A stretch of DNA of 46,956 nucleotides. Origin: a virus. Position numbers and translations under genes: made by a program. Positions 11,458 through 24,411 of this stretch are shown one piece after another. Each line of letters starts with the position of its first letter. The stretch's first letter is position 1. The stretch lies in the IMG/VR virus record IMGVR_UViG_3300044568_002419, positions 1-46,956 of that record; one strand, 5' to 3'. The notes beneath the pieces were generated by a model. That model was not told where the DNA came from and made no database searches. It was given only the letters and a program-made list of their open reading frames with translations.

Positions 11458-12594
11458 CTAAAGATATCGTTTATAAAACTCTGCTACTTCAGGAAAAGTT
11501 TTTTTCCAATCTTGATTTCGAATAATATCAAACCTGGTAGTTTCTTGCACAAACTGTTTTATTGCCGCAGGGTTTTCTTGCCAATACTTCCCGATCACAT
11601 TGCTCGATGGAGTATGTGCGATTGCATCAGCATATTCTTGTGTGATATTTTTAGGATACAAGTACGAATGCATGGCCAATTGAGTGCTGTGGCCAATTGC
11701 ATCGCCCTCTTTGTTGCTGTTGAAATTTTGTTTTACCCAATCACTAACTTCGTTAAAATAATACAAGTTCAAACAACTGGTACATTCTTGCACAAAAAAC
11801 ATCACATTGCTTGGCAAATTTTCTCTTAAAGTTAAAATGTTATCAACAGTTTGATTCCAACTGGCTGGCCATCTTAAGTATTCGAATTTATCACCAATGC
11901 CGTCAATGCTGACTATCAGTTTAACCAACTTAAATTTTTCAATCACATCATACCATTGTGGATCAATGGGTTGTGTTCCATTGGTTTGAAATGCCAATTC
12001 CAATTTGGTTTTTGCAGTTGGCACATGTTCTGCAAGCCATTGTGCAGTTTTCCAATAGGTGTTGCCTAATAATGTTTCTCCACCGCAAAATTGCACCATC
12101 TCAAGATTGTCAAGATTTAAACTTTCTAAGATATTTGTTACACGACTGGCATTGTCTGCTGGTATAATTTCAAAAACAGGTAAATTGTTTTCTTTAAGGT
12201 GTTTGGCCCATAAAGTACTAGATCTTGGACCGCAAGTTCTGCAAGCCAAATTGCAACTGCGATCAAATAACAAATCAATCCGTTGAGGTCCATTTAAATT
12301 TTTATGAACTCCAAATTTTTCTATCATTGATTTTCTAAAACTTTTAACTCCAACTTTTTCCAATGTTAAACATTGGTAGCAACCAGACAACCATTGGTTG
12401 TTATCATTGGACCAGCGATTCTTTGTAAAATCATTGCCGTTCCAATTTATGCTGTCTTTTTTTACAAATGTCAATGGAGTATTGCTGAGACAACACTGAT
12501 TGTATCCAAGTTCGTTAGTTTGATTTAATTCACTATTGAGTTTTAAATCAATGTTAAGCCCACCATGAATCATTGGACAAAAAGTGTCGTTCAT
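11458..12594 (-). CDS. Radical SAM protein with N-terminal cysteine region (copy 2)
   Basis: A 378-residue protein. Radical SAM motif Cys114-x3-Cys118-x2-Cys121 (SCNLACRTCGPRSS), GGETLLGN as the SAM-contact motif, and FQTNGT plus SIDGIGDKFEYLRW as typical barrel strands. The N-terminal region repeats the layout of the other copies: Cys6, Cys34-Cys35, Cys72-x2-Cys75, then E-x2-G-x2-S-x-R. The SIDG-x(n)-FEY-x-R segment is shared with copy 1. The ATG at 12594 overlaps the gp41 stop (ATGA), so it probably belongs to the replication operon gp61-gp41. The C-terminal half is divergent and lacks a cysteine-rich SPASM domain, in line with a twitch-type protein. Substrate unknown. Confidence 0.85.
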   Translation of the reverse strand: MNDTFCPMIHGGLNIDLKLNSELNQTNELGYNQCCLSNTPLTFVKKDSINWNGNDFTKNRWSNDNNQWLSGCYQCLTLEKVGVKSFRKSMIEKFGVHKNLNGPQRIDLLFDRSCNLACRTCGPRSSTLWAKHLKENNLPVFEIIPADNASRVTNILESLNLDNLEMVQFCGGETLLGNTYWKTAQWLAEHVPTAKTKLELAFQTNGTQPIDPQWYDVIEKFKLVKLIVSIDGIGDKFEYLRWPASWNQTVDNILTLRENLPSNVMFFVQECTSCLNLYYFNEVSDWVKQNFNSNKEGDAIGHSTQLAMHSYLYPKNITQEYADAIAHTPSSNVIGKYWQENPAAIKQFVQETTRFDIIRNQDWKKTFPEVAEFYKRYL

Positions 12595-14036
12595 GATGTC
12601 TTGATTTTGCCTAACAACTGCTTAAGCTTGGCACTTTGGACGTCTGCTGTTACCTTGGGTGCTTCTAACTCAAAACCTTCTTTGGCTTGTGGTCGTTCCC
12701 AAGGTACAGACTTGGAATCTTCTGCGGCAGCACTAACCTGGCTTTTTGCTTTGATCGAGTCCATGATACTTGTATTGGGCTTTTTGCTGAACCCGTTTTC
12801 GTTATCATCCCCGCCTTCATCAGTAATGCGCATGGTTTCAATGTTGTACTCCAAATCAATCTTTTGACCAACGCCGGTCGAGCTTCGAGACTTCATACAC
12901 TGGATCTGATACTTGCCGCGCTCTTTCATTGCACGACTTGTAAAGATACCAAACACATTATCTGCTGTATTAATTTTAGAAATACCACCCGATATGTGTG
13001 AGTGGTCAAATTCAATTTCTTCCACAGCTGATCGATTCAACTGACTCGCAGTTACCATCAAGATGCCTAGTTCTTTGGCCAAGTTGCGCAGTTCTTCTGA
13101 CACATACTTGTCTTTCACAAACAAATCATTGGGCGAAACTTTGGCGCTAACAGGCATCAGCAAGTCCAAGTAGTCAATCATCACAAAGTCCACTTTCTTA
13201 CCAGTTTGAATTTGATACTCTTTCAAATAAGCACGAATGTCATTGATGTTTGATTGTGCTGGTAAGCCTTTGACCTGATAGTTGCCGGACTTCCTGGCCA
13301 CGAGTTTAACCTTGAGCTCTGTGGTGTCTATGTCTTTGCGAATGTCTTTGGTGCTCATGTTTGTTAGCATGGCGTCGGTTCGCAAACTTGTTAGTTCTTC
13401 TGAAAGTTCTAGTGTGATGTACACTCCACTGAGTCCTTGTTGTATCCAGTTTAGTGCAATGTTCATCATGACCAAGCTCTTGCCTGATCCTGATCCGCCT
13501 GCAAAGATGTTTAGTTCGCCTCTGCTGAATCCACCATACAACAATCTGTCCAATTGTGACCAACCTGTGCTTACTTGTCCACCCGAGTTGAAGTATTTCT
13601 CAATGCGACCTTTAGGATCAGCAAAGTAGTCTGTGCCCATGTCCTTGGTAAGTGATATTTGTACTGCATCCTTGATCAGCTTTTCGACAGGATCATATTC
13701 ACCTTTTTCCAACAAGTCTGCGGCTTTTAGGATAGCTCGCTCTAGTTCTTGTCGTCGAGTAAATGCTTCAAACTCGCCCATGAACCAGTCAAAGTGTCCT
13801 TCGTTCAAGTCTGGCACAGCCGCCAATTTAACACCAGTGGTAGCAGAAATCTGCATGCGGTCCGGCAAGGTCTTGTGTTTGTCAGAGTGTTCTTTGATAA
13901 ACTCAGCCGCAGGTCTCAAACTCTTGTCAAAGTTTTGGGGGTTGTAGATGTTCTGAACACGCACATAGCTTTGTGCGTCCTCCAACATCATTTCTAGAAA
14001 TAAACGTTGGACGTCAAGTCCGTATTCTTTTAACAA
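12591..14036 (-). CDS. gp41: Replicative DNA helicase, T4 gp41-like (DnaB family)
   Basis: A 481-residue hexameric 5'-3' helicase of the DnaB/gp41 type, which unwinds DNA at the fork together with the gp61 primase. Visible features: an N-terminal helical domain, Walker A GGSGSGKS at about 180-187, VYITLELSEELTSLR (helicase H1a-type segment), a Walker B strand VDFVMIDYLDLL, and the VTASQLNRSA motif (H3). The C-terminal tail of 60 residues is acidic then Lys/Ser/Ala-rich and probably disordered. Length is close to T4 gp41 (475). The ATG at 14036 overlaps gp61 by 23 nt. Confidence 0.96.
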   Translation of the reverse strand: MLKEYGLDVQRLFLEMMLEDAQSYVRVQNIYNPQNFDKSLRPAAEFIKEHSDKHKTLPDRMQISATTGVKLAAVPDLNEGHFDWFMGEFEAFTRRQELERAILKAADLLEKGEYDPVEKLIKDAVQISLTKDMGTDYFADPKGRIEKYFNSGGQVSTGWSQLDRLLYGGFSRGELNIFAGGSGSGKSLVMMNIALNWIQQGLSGVYITLELSEELTSLRTDAMLTNMSTKDIRKDIDTTELKVKLVARKSGNYQVKGLPAQSNINDIRAYLKEYQIQTGKKVDFVMIDYLDLLMPVSAKVSPNDLFVKDKYVSEELRNLAKELGILMVTASQLNRSAVEEIEFDHSHISGGISKINTADNVFGIFTSRAMKERGKYQIQCMKSRSSTGVGQKIDLEYNIETMRITDEGGDDNENGFSKKPNTSIMDSIKAKSQVSAAAEDSKSVPWERPQAKEGFELEAPKVTADVQSAKLKQLLGKIKTS

Positions 14037-15000
14037 GTTGTTTCTTCCTTAGTTCTATTTTGATCTTACTGGTTTCTCTGGCTGCCATAATAGTTAGCAA
14101 GGCTCCCACACGCCCTAGCACAATCACAGCATCATTGACATCTTTGCAATCTTCTGGCCACTCGGGTATACTTACTGCCCATCCAAGTTCTACAGCACGA
14201 TCAATCAGTTCCATGCCAGCTAGGTCTTGGTCGGGCACCACAGTTATTTCTCGTCCCAAGTTGCGTATCAATCGAGCCTGTGCGTCACTTATGGTATTGT
14301 GCATCACAGCCACACCACCAATACTCAATGCATCAAAGATGCCTTCTGTCACTATCACATTGGTCCAGTTGTTGTGCTGTAAGTCTGTTCCAAACACATA
14401 ACCTGGCTGGCTGTCTGAAATAAACTTGGGTTGACGGTTGTCTAAAAATCTGCAGGTGAATCCTACAATTTTGTTTTCGTATGTGAATGGGATCACCACA
14501 TGCGGGCGTGTCCAATGAACACCATCATTTTGTGTCTGCACCATGACAGGAAAGTCTTCAGGCACACGTCTGCCACGTGCATAGTCCCAATGCATTTGGT
14601 GTTCGGGTGTTAGCAATTCAGCAAAAGGTGGTAAGTCGCGTTCTTCAAATGTGATACCAGCCAGTTGGTTCCAAGCCTGTTGTCGATCTTCCAGGATGCC
14701 ATGTATGCTACGATGCCGCAGGCTTTCGAGATTGAGCATTTCAATTTCGTTATCTGGCACACCCATCCATCCCAGCAATCTACGAGCTTTGACACTTAGG
14801 GTACGTCCCATGATAAAACTGGCTGTGTAGGTACAATTGAAACAATGATAACTCCACCCCTGCTCGGTGGCTTTGAGTCCAGCACGACCTCTTGTGTCTC
14901 GTGTACTACCATTATGCTGACAGCAAACCGCATTGAAACTCAACCAACCTGATGGTGTGGATTTTCTTTTTGCAGGCAGATACGCAAGGATGTCGAGCAT
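14014..15000 (-). CDS. gp61: DNA primase, T4 gp61-like
   Basis: A 328-residue primase that makes RNA primers on the lagging strand in complex with gp41. An N-terminal zinc-binding region is visible (Cys26-Cys27 and His29, with Cys53-x2-Cys56 in YHCFNC), followed by a TOPRIM-type catalytic region with NVIVTEGIFDALSIGG and later EITVVPDQDLAGMELI. Length agrees with T4 gp61 (342). The ATG at 15000 has no Shine-Dalgarno site; a sigma70-type promoter has its -10 box only 6 nt upstream (15007-15012), so the message should be leaderless. Confidence 0.95.
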   Translation of the reverse strand: MLDILAYLPAKRKSTPSGWLSFNAVCCQHNGSTRDTRGRAGLKATEQGWSYHCFNCTYTASFIMGRTLSVKARRLLGWMGVPDNEIEMLNLESLRHRSIHGILEDRQQAWNQLAGITFEERDLPPFAELLTPEHQMHWDYARGRRVPEDFPVMVQTQNDGVHWTRPHVVIPFTYENKIVGFTCRFLDNRQPKFISDSQPGYVFGTDLQHNNWTNVIVTEGIFDALSIGGVAVMHNTISDAQARLIRNLGREITVVPDQDLAGMELIDRAVELGWAVSIPEWPEDCKDVNDAVIVLGRVGALLTIMAARETSKIKIELRKKQLVKRIRT

Positions 15001-16117: not shown

Positions 16118-16124
16118 TATTTAT
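16118..16124 (-). promoter_or_regulatory. Late-type promoter motif ATAAATA
   Basis: ATAAATA on the minus strand, 15 nt before the ATG at 16102. It overlaps the start codon of the plus-strand gene at 16123. Confidence 0.5.
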
Positions 16125-16500
16125 GGGTAATGATATCTTTCAAAAATTGGCGGTGAAATATCCGTTTATAACGCTGTGCGTTTACGCCAATGAAGAATAT
16201 GTGGGTGTAGTACAAAACAAAGACGATGCTGTCACAACCATCTATGATTTTGGTGCTGTGCTAACACAAGATGCCAAGTTAGAATACCTGGAATTGGCAG
16301 CCACCTGGTGGTGGGAGAGCAATCGTAGCATACCCATAAACATATTCCTGCGCGGTGAGTGGGACAAGTTTCGTCCTACATTGCGCACATTCTCCAACAA
16401 AGATCTTGAAATTTTACACGGCCCGGCTTGCAGTTTGATGGACATTGCTCGCAAAAAAACCAAGCGAAAATCAATCACACTTGTGCGGCGTCTTGATTGA
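16123..16500 (+). CDS. Conserved phage protein, unknown function
   Basis: A 125-residue protein on the plus strand, starting MGNDIFQKLAVKYPFITLCVY, with alpha/beta character (YANEEYVGVVQNKDDAVTTIY), a Trp-rich segment (ATWWWESN) and a basic C-terminus (ARKKTKRKSITLVRR). It is isolated between minus-strand genes: its start overlaps a late-type motif of the divergent gene and its last 26 nt overlap antisense with the following gene. No strong Shine-Dalgarno sequence. I do not recognise a family; coding character looks genuine, with no stop on this strand. Confidence 0.6.
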   Translation: MGNDIFQKLAVKYPFITLCVYANEEYVGVVQNKDDAVTTIYDFGAVLTQDAKLEYLELAATWWWESNRSIPINIFLRGEWDKFRPTLRTFSNKDLEILHGPACSLMDIARKKTKRKSITLVRRLD

Positions 16501-17581
16501 ACTGTGGATGTGTGCGCTCTAACTGCCGTATTGCAGTTTCAAATATTTTGAATTCTTGATCAAACAATGGACCCAAGTTCATAAAACGAGCACGATTATG
16601 CAGTCCAATTTGCTCTAGTTCTGCCCGATGTTTGTACCAATCAAACTGACCTAGACTTTGGACCAGATCAAATACTTTTCGCAGTCTTTGTTTATTGAAA
16701 GTCTTTAAATCATAACTTTCGTCCCACAGGCTGCTATAGGTTTTAAATCCCATGTCTCTGAGTCGTGACAAGTGTCCATGTGCTGATGCCAACACAAATG
16801 GCATGCCTAACATCAATGGTCGAATAACTTTTTCTGTAGTATAGTGAGTGGCAAAATCAAAATCGCTTTCCAATACCAGATTAAAGTAGGCCTGATCTAA
16901 CATGCGATTGGGCATACGTCCCACAATATGCAGATGTGGGTTTGGAATGTGTTGTGCAGAAGAGTCAAACCATTGTGCAAGATCTGGACCTGTATGAGCA
17001 AAATCTATCACGTCAAGATGATTGGCAGGTTGCCCTAAATCTTGTTGATTCAATCTAAATATAAAATTTTGATAAGACAATTCGGGTAACCAAGCAGCAA
17101 ACTGCTGACGATGCTGTCTTGGCACTGCATTAAAAGTCACAAACTGCATGGGCTTGGGATAGTCAAAGTGATACCTGCGATCTGTATAAAAAAATGCATT
17201 TTTGGTGCTACAGTGTAAATCTAGCATGTCTCCCAAGATAGACTCATAACAAATTAATGTATGATCAAGTGCAATGTTGATTAACCTATTAGGGTACGAT
17301 CCGCTAAAAATAATGTAGTGTTTGTTTTTTGGCAAGTTATTTAATGCCCCTACCTCTATCTCTTTGAGACCTTCTCTTAGATCAATGCCCACTACAGGTA
17401 AAGGATCATTGTCAATAAGGTCACTATCTTGTCGTGCGTAAATTTTAATAGCATTGTCATCCATTCCAGACACCATTGCTGCTGGCACATGTGTGCCAGA
17501 CAGATTTTGAAACTGTACCCATGATTGATAACGTTGGAAAAAATTTCCAACATGAAAACCTAGACGACAAAACTTTATCAT
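16475..17581 (-). CDS. Glycosyltransferase-like phage protein (family A, copy 1)
   Basis: A 368-residue protein. The C-terminal part shows the same set of motifs as the plus-strand gene at 35050-36042: FNLVLESDFDFATHYTTEK, then RPLMLGMPFVLASAHGHLS, then DMGFKTYSSLWDESYD. In glycosyltransferase families of this layout (fucosyltransferase/GT-B like), the EK-x-x-x-P-x-x-x-x-x-PF segment binds the nucleotide sugar. Probable cytoplasmic transfer of a sugar to an unknown acceptor (inference). Sits upstream of nothing obviously glycan-related, away from the main island. Stop overlaps the convergent gene by 26 nt; its ATG overlaps the stop of the next gene by 4 nt (ATGA). Confidence 0.7.
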   Translation of the reverse strand: MIKFCRLGFHVGNFFQRYQSWVQFQNLSGTHVPAAMVSGMDDNAIKIYARQDSDLIDNDPLPVVGIDLREGLKEIEVGALNNLPKNKHYIIFSGSYPNRLINIALDHTLICYESILGDMLDLHCSTKNAFFYTDRRYHFDYPKPMQFVTFNAVPRQHRQQFAAWLPELSYQNFIFRLNQQDLGQPANHLDVIDFAHTGPDLAQWFDSSAQHIPNPHLHIVGRMPNRMLDQAYFNLVLESDFDFATHYTTEKVIRPLMLGMPFVLASAHGHLSRLRDMGFKTYSSLWDESYDLKTFNKQRLRKVFDLVQSLGQFDWYKHRAELEQIGLHNRARFMNLGPLFDQEFKIFETAIRQLERTHPQFNQDAAQV

Positions 17582-18141
17582 TGATTTAGAAGATTCATAT
17601 GTAATGCTACTAGGGCTGCGTAGGAAATTGCGTGGCTTTTCTTAAATGTATATCCGCGGCTGTCGTCTCCATTCCACACTTCGGCAAACACTTCTGTCCA
17701 AGATCGATTCTGCAAGTGTGCTTTGCCCGGTCGAATAACTGAAATAAACGCTGCCATTCTGGGTATTGAATCTGGCTGCATTGACAGCATTAGGTCTGTA
17801 TAATTGCCCACATGCACCAACTGCTTGGTCCAGTCAGTGTCTGTCCATAGTCGCTGCCAAGGCGGTGTTGCTGCCAACATAGCCGTATAGTGTGCAGGGT
17901 CACGGATCAACTGATACACACTCATGTTCAGTAAGTCTATCTTGAAGTATCCACGCTGTTCCGCTGACTCATAGTCTATGGCTGCACAGCCATTGGGTAT
18001 GTCTTTAGGAATGTCTGTGACATAGATACCCGAATTGTGCTTACGCACTTGACCTTGATGCAGTTGCCGTGCGGCAGTGTGCTGGATCAATTTCAACACA
18101 GCCGTTCTGTCCGGCACATCAATGTCAATGTCTGCACTCAT
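17578..18141 (-). CDS. Miniature DNA polymerase III alpha (DnaE/C-family)-like protein
   Basis: A 187-residue protein carrying, in the right order, short blocks of bacterial DnaE: ADIDIDVPDR (residues 3-12; like the P-D-I-D-I-D-F catalytic strand with two of the three metal-binding aspartates), KHNSGIYVTD (34-43; like the HAsGVV block), DYESAEQRGYFKIDLLNM (about 56-73; like the block with the third catalytic aspartate, K67/D69 here), SIPRMAAFISVIRPGK (about 125-140; like ALYRPG), and TFKKSHAISYAALVAL (about 165-180; like FNKSHAAAYAL). DnaE is about 1160 residues, so PHP, thumb, and tail domains are absent. It could be an active compact polymerase, a DNA-binding accessory or an inhibitor. T4-like phages otherwise use a family-B polymerase. 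It overlaps both neighbours by 4 nt. Confidence 0.7.
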   Translation of the reverse strand: MSADIDIDVPDRTAVLKLIQHTAARQLHQGQVRKHNSGIYVTDIPKDIPNGCAAIDYESAEQRGYFKIDLLNMSVYQLIRDPAHYTAMLAATPPWQRLWTDTDWTKQLVHVGNYTDLMLSMQPDSIPRMAAFISVIRPGKAHLQNRSWTEVFAEVWNGDDSRGYTFKKSHAISYAALVALHMNLLNQ

Positions 18142-18498: not shown

Positions 18499-19170
18499 CT
18501 ACCATCCTGCCTTGTTCAATATATCCTTTGCATACTCCTGATCGGCAGGATAGTTGTGAAACTTCTTTTGCCACACATCTGAGTCAATGTAAGGCCATAC
18601 CATGCTGATCTGATCAGGCGTGAGTTCACTCAAGAACTGTTGTCCGGACTCCGAATTGTAAATCACCCAAGGTGATATTCTACCAGTTGTGACTGCATAG
18701 CACATGGCTGGAGTGCTGCCATATCTCAAGCAGTCCTGTGGCTGTGCTGAATTCTTTTCTGCCCAGTCCATGCCAAACTCCACTGCTCGTGCCAGTGCAT
18801 CATTCACATTCTCCACGGGCAAATGCTGTATGAGATATTCTGTGTACAGTTGATCACTTGCCCAACGATCAATCTTTTTGTTGTTTTTCAACAGCCACTC
18901 AAGAAACTGCTTGGGATTGATGGTTCGTGTGCTCACACAATAGCGTCCAAACTTCACAAACCCGCGATAGTAAGGTGAGTCAGCAAAGTCATCAAACGTT
19001 TTGAGTTTAGCCGACCCTTGGCTCATTTCATAAAAGCGTATGTAGGCTTGAAAACCCAGTTCCACTCCACGCTCTGCTCGTTCTTGTCTGCGCCTTTTGG
19101 GCTCGCACACATGCACTGCCAAAGAAGTTTCTTTGATAAAGTCTTTCTTGCAGTATTGGCATTGTGTCAT
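18499..19170 (-). CDS. Zinc-finger protein of unknown function
   Basis: A 223-residue protein. Residues 4-22 form a C-x2-C-x(n)-H-x-C zinc-binding finger (CQYCKKDF then HVCE), suggesting nucleic-acid or protein binding. It is followed by a basic RRRQERAERGVELG helix and a long helical region. The rest (for example GFVKFGRYCVSTRTINPKQF and YGSTPAMCYAV) matches nothing I can name. It overlaps the gp62-like gene by 4 nt, so it lies in the replication-linked operon. A transcription or replication accessory role is possible but unsupported. Confidence 0.65.
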   Translation of the reverse strand: MTQCQYCKKDFIKETSLAVHVCEPKRRRQERAERGVELGFQAYIRFYEMSQGSAKLKTFDDFADSPYYRGFVKFGRYCVSTRTINPKQFLEWLLKNNKKIDRWASDQLYTEYLIQHLPVENVNDALARAVEFGMDWAEKNSAQPQDCLRYGSTPAMCYAVTTGRISPWVIYNSESGQQFLSELTPDQISMVWPYIDSDVWQKKFHNYPADQEYAKDILNKAGW

Positions 19171-19637
19171 TTGGAATCGTCGCCGGAGTCTTTTGAGTAT
19201 TGTTTGATTTCTTTGTCTGATACAATCTGCATCATCACTTCTATCTCGTCGTCTTTGTAGTGTGGATACATTGCTACCAATGCCTTACGTTTAGCACTAG
19301 CCCCTGGTTGTTTTTTCTTGGGTGCAATCCAAGGATGTCTAAGTGTGCCTAGATCTGGGCTGACTGAAGTGGCCATGAGCCATTGCAGTTTTGGATGTTT
19401 TGACACGTTAAAAAAATGCTTGTTCAGTCGTTCGTTGGTGGCAATTACATAGAACTCCTGCAATTCTCTTGAACCTTCAACTGCTGATCCCCAACGTATC
19501 ATGAGATAGTTTGAAAACTTTTTGCGTTCTTCAGGAGTGAGATCGTCGTAAAATGATCTAACTTTACAGTCAAACATCTTCATCTCATTGGCAATGGTCA
19601 GTTTATCCAATTTGTAATGTCTCTTTGTATACATCAT
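19167..19637 (-). CDS. gp62: Sliding-clamp loader small subunit, T4 gp62-like
   Basis: A 156-residue basic protein with features I associate with marine T4-like gp62 (clamp-loader subunit that with gp44 loads the gp45 clamp): FYDDLTPEERKKFSNYLMIR, then SRELQEFYVIATNERLNKHF, and SKHPKLQWLMATSVSPDLG with a following HPWIAPKKK. The C-terminus is long and charged. Possible starts are TTG 19658 and ATGs at 19637/19634; I chose 19637. Its first 35 nt overlap the end of the radical SAM gene. No gp44 or gp45 is recognised in the window, so the assignment rests on sequence recall. Confidence 0.65.
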   Translation of the reverse strand: MMYTKRHYKLDKLTIANEMKMFDCKVRSFYDDLTPEERKKFSNYLMIRWGSAVEGSRELQEFYVIATNERLNKHFFNVSKHPKLQWLMATSVSPDLGTLRHPWIAPKKKQPGASAKRKALVAMYPHYKDDEIEVMMQIVSDKEIKQYSKDSGDDSK

Positions 19638-20661
19638 GTTTGACGGGTAAACTGTCAAACCAGTTTTCGTTTCGGTAGTTGTCTTGAATCATTTGTCGAG
19701 CCAAGAAGCGATACCAGTTAGTTGCATTATAACGCTGATTGCGCAAAGCGTCAACTGCTCCTTGCATGTTGATATGTTTGGCAAATTTGGATTGCTCTAG
19801 CATTTTGATCAATGAAGGGCGAAATTGTTCTGGAATGCTTCCTAGTCCAATAACAGAATCCACATTGGCCAACACTGGTTCAAATTGATCTGGGGTCAAC
19901 CAGACAAAGTATTCTAATAGCTCGGGTAACCACCAAATATTGATAGCACTGATTACAGTAGCAATTCTAATATTGCAGTTTGGTTGTGTAAGAACCCATT
20001 TTAAATTACGTTCTACCGTGTTCCATTCACTGCCACTGCGCACTATGCCAGCATACTTGCCCACAGCATCTATGCTTGCATGAACATTAATGCGGCTGAA
20101 TGAAGGCCACAAATCTTTAACATGTTTTGATTTGGCACCTAACACAGTCATGTTGGTGCTGTACATTATAGCAGGGTCGGCGCCTTGCGCAATTAGTTTT
20201 TCAAGCACTTGATAATGTTGCGGATTCAACAATGGTTCGCCACCTGCAAAATAAATTTGTTTGCACTCACTTAGGTCCATGTCTGCAACATCAATTGGAT
20301 TGTACAAACTTATGTCATCTACTCCGGCTTCGCTCGACCAACTGGTACTGAATCCTGGCCCACAACTACGGCATTTTAAATTGCAAAGATTGTTGTTGCG
20401 AAAATCTAAAAAATGTATCTTGTGTGTTTTGTAGTCTGTTTTATACTCGCTATACATTCCGCGCCACCCTAACTCACCCGGAGGACAAGGATTGGCGCAT
20501 TCTTTTGGAACCTCACCGCGTAAGAATGCTCCACCAACTGTCTCGGTCATTTCTTCGCGACTGTTGAATTTGGCACCGCCCCATGCACAGCAAGGAGTAT
20601 ATTTGCCGCCCGGCATGTAACTTACGCTAGTCCAAGGTGCTTTGCAATAAATTTTATTCAT
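19603..20661 (-). CDS. Radical SAM protein with N-terminal cysteine region (copy 3)
   Basis: A 352-residue protein. N-terminus MNKIYCKAPWTSVSYMPGG (Cys6 and a PW) then YTPCCAWGG (Cys24-Cys25), C55 and C59 (ECANPCPPGELGWRG), then the radical SAM core motif Cys93-x3-Cys97-x2-Cys100 (LCNLKCRSC) and a GGEPLL SAM-contact motif. The N-terminal C-PW-G-CC layout is the best match in this window to the twitch/SPASM-associated family. YSTNMTVLG and VHASIDAVGKYAG are barrel strands. The substrate is unknown. The ATG overlaps the next upstream stop (ATGA, 20658-20661), and its end overlaps the gp62-like gene by 35 nt. Confidence 0.87.
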   Translation of the reverse strand: MNKIYCKAPWTSVSYMPGGKYTPCCAWGGAKFNSREEMTETVGGAFLRGEVPKECANPCPPGELGWRGMYSEYKTDYKTHKIHFLDFRNNNLCNLKCRSCGPGFSTSWSSEAGVDDISLYNPIDVADMDLSECKQIYFAGGEPLLNPQHYQVLEKLIAQGADPAIMYSTNMTVLGAKSKHVKDLWPSFSRINVHASIDAVGKYAGIVRSGSEWNTVERNLKWVLTQPNCNIRIATVISAINIWWLPELLEYFVWLTPDQFEPVLANVDSVIGLGSIPEQFRPSLIKMLEQSKFAKHINMQGAVDALRNQRYNATNWYRFLARQMIQDNYRNENWFDSLPVKHDVYKETLQIG

Positions 20662-21103: not shown

Positions 21104-21700
21104 TTAATTATTAACTGTGAAATGAAAAATTGGCGCACCTGGTCCTCGGGCATTATTAGGATATTGGGACTGCGTAATTAGTCTATACCCTAAATTATAA
21201 AAAGTTGTAATCATTATTTCATTATCAATATTGATAACTATGTTACAAGTTTTCATGTCATTAGTTGTATATCTCATACCAGGAACATTTGATGGTTCAT
21301 TGCGCCATTCAAATGCAGGACTTAGATTATCAATTACAACGTCGTTGGGCCTACAGTGATTTACTAGTTCTTCTATAACTAGCAGTGGCGCCGGACTATG
21401 GTATATCACGCCTAACATTAACGCCACATCCACAGCACCAACTTTGTCAAAATCTTTATGCATGTCTCCGTGGATTACTTGTGCTTGAGGAAATTTCTCT
21501 CTTATTAAATCCAATGAAAAACTATTAGACTCCAATAGAGTTAATTTTTTTGGATTGTGTTGAACTACCAGTTCAGTAATCCAGCCATCAAAGCAACCCA
21601 CTTCTAACACATCTTTGTTGCCGCATATGACTGACAAAAAGTTATCATTTAGAAATTTACACTTGTTAAAATGTTGGTCTTCTGCCGAATGAATTATCAT
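21104..21700 (-). CDS. Class I SAM-dependent methyltransferase
   Basis: A 198-residue protein with a Rossmann methyltransferase signature DVLEVGCFDGW (motif I, glycine loop), KLTLLESNSFSLDLI (motif II), a predicted DVALMLGVIYHSP post-motif IV segment, and a later RPNDVVIDNLS strand. It starts MIIHSAEDQHFNKCKFLND at 21700, where ATG and the upstream stop overlap as TAATG. The catalytic target (small molecule, sugar, nucleic acid) cannot be told. Methyltransferases of this type are frequent in the glycan island too, so a glycan or peptide role is possible. Confidence 0.8.
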   Translation of the reverse strand: MIIHSAEDQHFNKCKFLNDNFLSVICGNKDVLEVGCFDGWITELVVQHNPKKLTLLESNSFSLDLIREKFPQAQVIHGDMHKDFDKVGAVDVALMLGVIYHSPAPLLVIEELVNHCRPNDVVIDNLSPAFEWRNEPSNVPGMRYTTNDMKTCNIVINIDNEIMITTFYNLGYRLITQSQYPNNARGPGAPIFHFTVNN

Positions 21701-22200
21701 TACCAAGCCTTGTTGTAGTCCACAATCTCGCAATTGCGGCTTACGTCTTTGACAAAATACACACAGTCAGGGTCTGCACCGTCACTTACAGGCACAGCCA
21801 GCAGTTGACCATTCTTGAGTTTGGGTGCATACCATGACACTTCGTGATACACATCTAAGATTTCAATGTCAGGAAAGCTGGGACGGAAACTGGTCAGTGG
21901 ATTGAATTGGAATACTTTAAATCCACGATCGTTGATTGATGTGAGTGGCAACACTTCTAAGTCACCTACATCAGGTTCACCAATTAGTATCTGCCAATCC
22001 ATAGGCATCTTTATAGTGTGCTCCCCTATACGTAGCACAAGAGCAGGAGCATTGAAGCTCTCCAAAAAGATTAAGGGTATAAAATGATAGTCTGGGTCTG
22101 CTGGATTTGAATTGTCTAATATAGCAAAACGCATGTCATCTATTTCTTCAGGCAGGTGATCTAAATCGTAAGTGGCATTGTCTAGTGTAAGTATTCTCAT
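21700..22200 (-). CDS. Conserved T4-like protein with its own leaderless promoter
   Basis: A 166-residue protein rich in beta strands, starting MRILTLDNATYDLDHLPEE. Typical segments are KMPMDWQILIGEPDVGDLEV, LTSINDRGFKVFQFNPLTSF and PKLKNGQLLAVPVSDG. I recall relatives of this family in marine T4-like phages but no function. A TTGACT-N17-TACACT promoter sits upstream (22207-22235) with the -10 box 6 nt from the ATG and no ribosome site. Transcribed with the downstream methyltransferase. Confidence 0.7.
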   Translation of the reverse strand: MRILTLDNATYDLDHLPEEIDDMRFAILDNSNPADPDYHFIPLIFLESFNAPALVLRIGEHTIKMPMDWQILIGEPDVGDLEVLPLTSINDRGFKVFQFNPLTSFRPSFPDIEILDVYHEVSWYAPKLKNGQLLAVPVSDGADPDCVYFVKDVSRNCEIVDYNKAW

Positions 22201-22235: not shown

Positions 22236-22945
22236 GTCCAATCTAATGTAAGATCAAATAATATTTGACAAAACTCTTCGTGTGCCCAAGCAGGATTGTG
22301 TGTTGCAGTATAACGAATTGGTGTTTCCCAATTTGATGGGCCGTACGGCATGGCATAAGGGGTTTGGGCTGTTAATGGCCATACGCGATCAACCCAGTTC
22401 CACTCATGTTGTGACATCCATCCAGGAATCAATACAAAAGGAATGTTGGATTTTTTTAGTTGTTCCAAGCCATTACAAATCATGTAGTAATCTTTCTGTG
22501 ATTGTAAAGCAGGATTATGCAGGCAAGAAATATAATGTTTAAGTGCGGTAAGTGTTGACTCGCTTAGTAAATCAGTGTGCTGTTTTTCAATTAAATTGTT
22601 AAACGTGTCTGAAATTACTTTTACATCATTGGAGGTTACATGTTGTTCGGCAGCACATTTATAGTTGCGATAATCAATGTTATCTAATTGATATAATTGG
22701 TGCTGGACGCCTAATGAAATATCAAAGCGATCTGAACTGGTAAGTCCTACTACAATATAGTCAGCTTGTTCATTTATGGCACGATCTATTTGTAGACGAA
22801 TACAAAAATTGGTAGCGCCCGGTCTAGCCAAACTAACATGAGTGAAGTTTCTACGTCGGGCGTACAGTTCACTGAAACTGATAATGCTGTCATCCGGAAA
22901 GTCAGTGGTCATAAAACTGTCACCCAAACTAAAAAACTTTTTCAT
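22232..22945 (-). CDS. SGNH/GDSL-type hydrolase-like protein
   Basis: A 237-residue protein starting MKKFFSLGDSFMTTD. G8-D9-S10 matches block I of SGNH esterases (nucleophile Ser10). A block-III-like segment follows in NEQADYIVVGLTSSDRF (GLTSSD in place of GxND), and near the C-terminus is THNPAWAHEEF, where His could be the catalytic base. SGNH enzymes remove acyl groups from sugars or lipids; in phages such proteins often act on O-acetylated glycans. It overlaps uvsW by 4 nt (ATGA), an unusual neighbour for a hydrolase. The GxND block is degenerate, so activity is uncertain. Confidence 0.65.
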   Translation of the reverse strand: MKKFFSLGDSFMTTDFPDDSIISFSELYARRRNFTHVSLARPGATNFCIRLQIDRAINEQADYIVVGLTSSDRFDISLGVQHQLYQLDNIDYRNYKCAAEQHVTSNDVKVISDTFNNLIEKQHTDLLSESTLTALKHYISCLHNPALQSQKDYYMICNGLEQLKKSNIPFVLIPGWMSQHEWNWVDRVWPLTAQTPYAMPYGPSNWETPIRYTATHNPAWAHEEFCQILFDLTLDWT

Positions 22946-24411
22946 TTTATCTTCATCCATTCTAGTTTTTCTTGGGTAAAAGGATAGTTGGCTTCTTTGT
23001 AGAATTGTTTGCGTTTGGTCAAGTGGCGCTTGGCAAATTTACAGGTTGAAGTTATGTCCCAGATTTGAACATGGTCTTTGTCTTCGGCTTTTCTTATGCC
23101 GCGTCCAATGCTTTGGATAACGCGGACAAAACTTTTCCCGGGTTCCACAAGAACCAAATTAAAAATCCTAGGGATATTAATACCCACAGCGGCAACACCA
23201 TAGGTAGCCACAATAATCTTATCAACGCTGTCCGCCACTTCGTCATACTCGTCTTGTCTATCTTTTGCTTTGGTTGCGCCTGACACAAACACTGCACGTT
23301 CGCCCAGTCTCTCTACTAACTGTCGACCACACTCAGTTCTGTCTACTAATACTAGTGTGTTGCCTGTTTCATTTACATGGCGTATGAGTTCACTCATAGC
23401 ATCCAGTCTGCCCGACTCTTCCAACAAGTATTTAAGCTCGCTTTGGTAGTTGGAGTATTCAACATGATCCTGTAACTGCACAATGTTCACATGGCACTGC
23501 GCCAACACACCTTGTTGTTGCAGTTCATTGGCGCTGAGCTTGCTGATCACTGGGCCTAGGCTCACTAGCAATGCCTGGCTTTCAAACTTCTCTTTGGGCA
23601 CTGTGCCAGTCAATCCCCAACGAATTGGCACTCTAGCCATCACGCTGGTCAGTAGAGTTTTGAGTGCATCTGCTTTGGCCATGTGTACTTCGTCCACCAT
23701 CACACACACCACATCCTCAATAAAGTCCTGGATGGTTGCGATACCCACACCTGCCTTGGTATTCTTTAGCAGTACATTCAAACTCTGCCAAGTGCAGATG
23801 GTATGTGTACGTCCGTGTTCTTTTCTGTCGCCAAAGTAAACACCCACATCCAGGCCAAGATTCACATAGTCTTTTTCAGTTTGTGTAACTAGACTCTTGT
23901 TGGGCACAATCACAATTGATCGTCCATATGGCTCTATACTGGCACTCAAGGCTGCTGTCATTATAGTCTTGCCTGCACCTGTGGCCACTTCCTGTATGCA
24001 TTGTGGGTTGGTCAAGAAGTTGTTTACAATTTCTACCTGGTAGTCACGCAATGTGATGGGTTGTCCTTCTGCAGGATGTCCTTTAGGCCAAGTCTTGTGT
24101 GCAAACGTTTGTTCTGTAATTTGAGCAAACTCAAATGTAGTAGAGTATTCTCTTTGATCATCCAGTTCGATATCGTAGTTGTAGCGTTCCAGGATGGGCA
24201 TGATCTCTGGCAAAAGATTGGTATACGTTGAACCGCCCAATTGGAAGTAACTGACTTTGCCATCCCACCGTCCCAGCCTCACTGCTGGTAGATATCTTGC
24301 ATAAGGTACATCATACTTAAACGCATTGACCAGGGCCTTGCGCACATCCAGATCGATACCCTCTAGTTTGATGTTTACTTCATCTCGAATTTGTATGGTG
24401 CATCGTTTCAT
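22942..24411 (-). CDS. uvsW: DNA/RNA helicase UvsW
   Basis: A 489-residue superfamily 2 helicase of the UvsW type, which unwinds branched DNA and R-loops in late T4 replication. Features: an N-terminal beta domain (PYARYLPAVRLGRWDGKVSY), LRDYQVEIVN with the Q-type motif, Walker A ATGAGKT at about 143-149, DEVH (motif II) at about 237-240, GLTGT (motif III), then AATYGVAAVGINI and SIGRGIRK motifs V and VI in the second RecA domain. Length fits T4 UvsW (502). The ATG at 24411 is 6 nt from a -10 box and lacks a Shine-Dalgarno. Confidence 0.95.
   Translation of the reverse strand: MKRCTIQIRDEVNIKLEGIDLDVRKALVNAFKYDVPYARYLPAVRLGRWDGKVSYFQLGGSTYTNLLPEIMPILERYNYDIELDDQREYSTTFEFAQITEQTFAHKTWPKGHPAEGQPITLRDYQVEIVNNFLTNPQCIQEVATGAGKTIMTAALSASIEPYGRSIVIVPNKSLVTQTEKDYVNLGLDVGVYFGDRKEHGRTHTICTWQSLNVLLKNTKAGVGIATIQDFIEDVVCVMVDEVHMAKADALKTLLTSVMARVPIRWGLTGTVPKEKFESQALLVSLGPVISKLSANELQQQGVLAQCHVNIVQLQDHVEYSNYQSELKYLLEESGRLDAMSELIRHVNETGNTLVLVDRTECGRQLVERLGERAVFVSGATKAKDRQDEYDEVADSVDKIIVATYGVAAVGINIPRIFNLVLVEPGKSFVRVIQSIGRGIRKAEDKDHVQIWDITSTCKFAKRHLTKRKQFYKEANYPFTQEKLEWMKIK

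Follow-up and report, generated by a model that had tools for sequence, protein, structure and literature searches.

The C-terminal half of a split DNA polymerase III alpha-like protein encoded in a jumbo phage-related virus record

Bacterial chromosomes are replicated by family-C polymerases, which are known as large single chains. In 2021, Iyer et al. described a split minimal Pol III alpha that occurs together with a family-B polymerase in the 'group 2.2' jumbo phages, proposed that the split enzyme is reconstituted from two units, and further proposed that such minimal forms resemble ancestral Pol III (PMC7824862). No biochemical test of DNA synthesis by a split phage Pol III alpha was found in the open-access literature. 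The gene analysed here lies in a 46,956-base virus record (the window), which is probably a fragment. It is the C-terminal unit of the split system of Iyer et al., and thus a new member of a kind already published. The original prediction regarded a C-family-like protein in a T4-like phage as unexpected. The spirit of this was right, but jumbo phages that combine a family-B polymerase with a split minimal Pol III alpha had already been reported (PMC7824862).

The gene and its homology to DnaE

An intact open reading frame of 187 amino acid (aa) residues, hereafter the C-half, spans exactly 17578-18141 on the minus strand, and is tied to its upstream and downstream genes by 4-bp ATGA overlaps. 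These ends and this length agree with the original prediction, which had given no strand; the plus-strand reading was rejected because its translation is full of stops. Residues 3-186 match positions 7-192 (of 197) of the PHROG 11778 'DNA polymerase' profile (5.2e-52), and a match to the DnaE-like PHROG 405 was also obtained (6e-6). Searches of the single sequence against Pfam and NCBIfam, and with phmmer against the PDB, gave no significant match. Since the DnaE matches of C-half profiles against the PDB were weak (E 0.013-0.14), with the unrelated 8fhc_A scoring similarly, we relied on PHROGs, on HHalign with shuffled profiles and on fold comparison.

HHalign of a 53-sequence C-half profile against a six-sequence DnaE set gave a score of 63.3, compared to 17.0 +/- 2.5 for 100 column-shuffled C-half profiles, none of which reached this value (z = 18), and to 15.7 for the reversed C-half profile used as a control. 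The C-half aligns collinearly with residues 399-781 of E. coli DnaE, with large deletions within, and all five short blocks previously picked out by eye are present in DnaE order, at a score well above chance. The AlphaFold2 model of the protein was confident (pLDDT 93.7, pTM 0.85), and in a Foldseek search against the PDB all of ranks 1-15 were Pol III alpha or PolC, lower ranks being noise, with a probability of 1.00 for the best match and TM-scores of up to 0.54 on the query length. The named top matches in a viral structure library were phage DnaE-type polymerases. Because the Foldseek E-values were modest (best 0.005), the conclusion rests on agreement between the methods: the Pol III palm fold is present in the 187-aa protein, and its resemblance to DNA polymerase III alpha is homology, not chance. 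The C-family assignment, which had been staked on a palm-like fold and a significant DnaE profile match, is therefore borne out by both.

Active-site residues and missing domains

The metal ligands of E. coli Pol III alpha are D401, D403 and D555 (PMC3919608), the first of which begins its D-F-D-V-D motif. In the HHalign alignment, D401 and D403 pair with D4 and D6 of the D4-I-D-I-D8 block (18118-18132, minus strand) and D555 pairs with D69 (codon 17935-17937, minus strand), so D4, D6 and D69 are assigned as the ligands of the 187-aa protein, D8 corresponding to E. coli D405. Three acidic residues are thus in place, as predicted, and D6 and D69 were correctly named as catalytic, but the suggested D6/D8 pairing gives way to D4/D6. 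The F166-K-K-S-H170 block (17632-17646, minus strand) is equivalent to E. coli residues 756-760, of which H760 is a modelled steric gate (PMC8485763); by alignment, H170 is its equivalent. D4 and D6 are Asp in every homologue covering the column (180 of 182 distinct sequences), while H35, G38, K67, D69, R137, P138, K140 and H170 do not vary among the 182 distinct C-half homologues.

The spacing from DIDID to H-x-x-G is 26 residues in the C-half versus about 105 in E. coli DnaE, a shortening that takes out the thumb, whose limits in the 2006 E. coli structure are about 433-510. Similarly, about 26 residues separate RPG from FxKxH, versus about 114 in E. coli DnaE, and much of the fingers is lost with them. 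The protein holds only part of the palm and fingers, without the PHP, thumb and C-terminal regions, and does not unite PHP, palm, thumb and fingers in one chain as C-family polymerases do. The original prediction that all other DnaE domains are gone is consistent with these observations, the fingers being cut down as well. Its description of compressed catalytic blocks holds for the blocks themselves but not for a whole active site, since the palm GRGS motif is absent from the C-half and is found in a second protein.

The N-terminal half, gene neighbourhood and selection

The 187-aa protein is the C-terminal half of a split polymerase, not a miniature polymerase on its own. The N-half family, PHROG 11127, includes gp316 of phage Atu_ph07, an annotated DNA polymerase whose sequence contains GVGRGS and stops immediately ahead of the D401-equivalent position. 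When aligned to the DnaE set, the N-half and C-half families occupy columns 317-491 and 492-872, with no gap and no overlap, and both match PHROG 405 collinearly (N-half at 361-435, C-half at 578-680). The GxGRGS motif is invariant in 89 distinct N-halves. The earlier idea of a 'minimal polymerase' is therefore sound as to family C, but the gene supplies only one of two complementary proteins that tile DnaE exactly. When the N-half was modelled alone, confidence was too low for conclusions on its fold (pLDDT 71.8) and was poor in the GRGS loop and at the C-terminus, as expected if those parts need a partner; a shallow alignment may equally be a sufficient reason.

The N-half gene was not found in the 47-kb window, which is probably a fragment. 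In its closest large relative among the matches listed, a 364-kb contig (G001) whose C-half is 94% identical, the N-half gene lies at 83.8 kb, about 97 kb from the C-half gene at about 181.4-182.0 kb. Nine large contigs contain both halves (G001, G002, G004, G010 and G012-G016), of which G001 and G002 have identical coordinates and may be one phage; some contigs, such as G003 (220 kb) and G018 (320 kb), which may be incomplete, have one half only. In G018, a stop interrupts the N-half frame (L111 4001-4525) and no C-half was found in the contig, which may reflect an assembly error, an incomplete contig or a real loss. Among annotated phages, the C-half is present in 90 records and N-half matches were obtained in 93, with almost equal counts per genus, totals being compared rather than individual records. 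No fused or adjacent halves were found at 242 C-half loci, for which short flanks were fetched. Both halves and a family-B polymerase were also found in the 141-kb Alishewanella phage Slickus01, so genomes above 200 kb are not the only ones with the split pair. The halves of Slickus01 are unannotated hypothetical proteins (L342 4231-4743; OQ508957.1 68370-68840 and 79811-80038). In NC_025447.1, MH494197.1 and other records the halves are often labelled 'hypothetical', 'membrane' or 'structural', so that the pair readily escapes notice.

The window and the jumbo phages compared share one gene order, consisting of a UvsW-like DNA helicase (PHROG 16; 22942-24411, minus strand), the families PHROG 11279, PHROG 11758 and PHROG 11058 (PHROG 11058 being the upstream neighbour at 18499-19170, minus strand), the C-half, PHROG 11637 on the opposite strand (16123-16500, plus strand), a DNA primase (PHROG 47; 14014-15000, minus strand) and a DnaB-like replicative helicase (PHROG 19; 12591-14036, minus strand), although some genes were not found in some of the phages and the window has extra genes inserted. 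This order is kept among phages with 34-41% identity in the C-half. In each of seven jumbo phages, the PHROG 11637 gene and the C-half gene converge, and the N-terminus of the PHROG 11058 protein resembles a zinc finger by eye (CQYCKKDF...LAVHVC). Two radical SAM proteins (PHROG 14086; 11458-12594 and 19603-20661, minus strand) lie on either side of the replication genes, a methyltransferase was recognised by Pfam at 21104-21733, and several further ORFs at about 28-44 kb, as judged by eye, are putative radical SAM proteins, methyltransferases or glycosyltransferase-like or nucleotidyltransferase-like proteins. The N-half gene is close to an annotated clamp loader in Atu_ph07, and an RFC-like gene, recognised by sequence only, lies near it in G001 and G004.

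A family-B polymerase is present in G001 and in all 11 other records tested, and was not found in the window fragment or in the fragmentary records G003-G009. A family-A profile matched none of 12 records, and family-C searches in G001 and G004 found the N-half only and no full-length DnaE. With replication already carried out by a family-B polymerase, the thumb and most DNA-binding parts missing and the C-half gene only two genes from the primase, the two halves might form an active nucleotidyltransferase that does not elongate DNA on a template but, for instance, makes primers, adds nucleotides without a template or modifies nucleotides. We consider this unlikely, as the invariance of H170 and of the helix in the fingers with which the incoming dNTP makes contact points to dNTP incorporation.

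The C-half was detected by tblastn in 90 phage records, with 34-41% identity among the matches listed, and scans of IMG/VR gave at least 589 relatives, indicating that it is frequent among environmental virus contigs. In a scan of 84,980 species genomes there were 13 matches, all in metagenome-assembled or uncultured genomes; these were taken, without checking each singly, as mis-binned phage contigs, and a cellular origin was rejected. Compared to close relatives, the C-half has a dN/dS of about 0.05-0.09, suggesting strong purifying selection. A decaying remnant of a full-length DnaE, as the many missing domains might suggest, is extremely improbable and is contradicted by this selection, by the similar ORF length across about 240 loci and by the gene order conserved among phages whose C-halves are only 34-41% identical. 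The small size and missing domains would also suit a non-catalytic regulator or scaffold, in which the pair mimics the Pol III palm and binds replisome parts or interferes with the host polymerase. This is quite unlikely, given that all metal ligands, like the two sides of the active site, are unchanged over deep divergence. A decoy would have no need of catalytic aspartates, and host-directed proteins usually diverge quickly, yet the dN/dS is low and, among the 182 distinct homologues, the catalytic residues are the same in every sequence that covers the column; the earlier suggestion of a decoy for the host polymerase thus found no support.

Proposed function and comparison with known systems

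It is likely that the C-half and the N-half (PHROG 11127) constitute a two-protein, thumbless C-family nucleotidyltransferase with a single non-covalent active site, serving auxiliary DNA synthesis. The C-half would contribute its three metal-binding aspartates, together with a short stretch of fingers that ends in the steric-gate helix, while the N-half would supply the palm GVGRGS loop, and the two would join non-covalently to form one Pol III-type active site. This reading is supported by DnaE homology in profile and fold, by the exact tiling of both families on DnaE, by the invariance of D4, D6, D69, K67, R137 and H170 and of GxGRGS in the N-half, by the co-occurrence of both halves, by purifying selection, by the family-B polymerase in 11 of 11 relatives and by the published reconstitution proposal. 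Against it stand the missing thumb, which leaves the grip on DNA hard to account for, the absence of the partner gene from the window and the modest Foldseek E-values. With thumb, PHP and clamp-binding parts gone, processive replication is less plausible, and short, distributive synthesis is probable, such as primer extension, gap filling or repair beside the family-B replicase. What would fit best is a role in repair, or in auxiliary synthesis next to the primase-helicase and the family-B polymerase. More tentatively, the C-half beside primase-helicase genes and the N-half near a clamp loader hint at a dedicated two-subunit second polymerase of a T4-type replisome, lacking thumb, PHP and clamp contacts, whose assembly would couple primer extension to the family-B replicase; we regard this as a doubtful possibility. 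If true, it would parallel the division of labour among eukaryotic polymerases without being homologous to it.

A conserved split palm and fingers stub beside a family-B replicase asks how small a working Pol III active site can be, and a phage keeping two unrelated polymerases raises the question of why it does so. The split palm also bears on the proposed resemblance to ancestral Pol III (PMC7824862). Given the exact junction and the residue assignments, the question can be tested on two proteins, each shorter than 200 residues.

Compared to bacterial DnaE (1160 aa), the 187-aa C-half has the same fold and collinear D401/D403/D405/D555, K553, H511, RPG and FxKxH blocks, but lacks the PHP, thumb, clamp-binding and OB parts, with the palm split over two proteins. 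The D405 equivalent is kept, as in all DnaE groups, whereas PolC has Asn there. The palm is also homologous to that of the full-length phage DnaE-like polymerases (PHROG 405; for example in Enterococcus phage 9183 and Streptomyces phage Lika), each of which consists of one chain of about 980-1,280 aa. With the split Pol III alpha of group 2.2, the window gene shares the C-terminal Mg2+/template-binding unit (PHROG 11778), and its relatives likewise have a distant, separate N-terminal unit (PHROG 11127) and a family-B polymerase. From the named group 2.2 jumbo phages the window lineage differs only in degree, with 34-41% identity among the matches listed.
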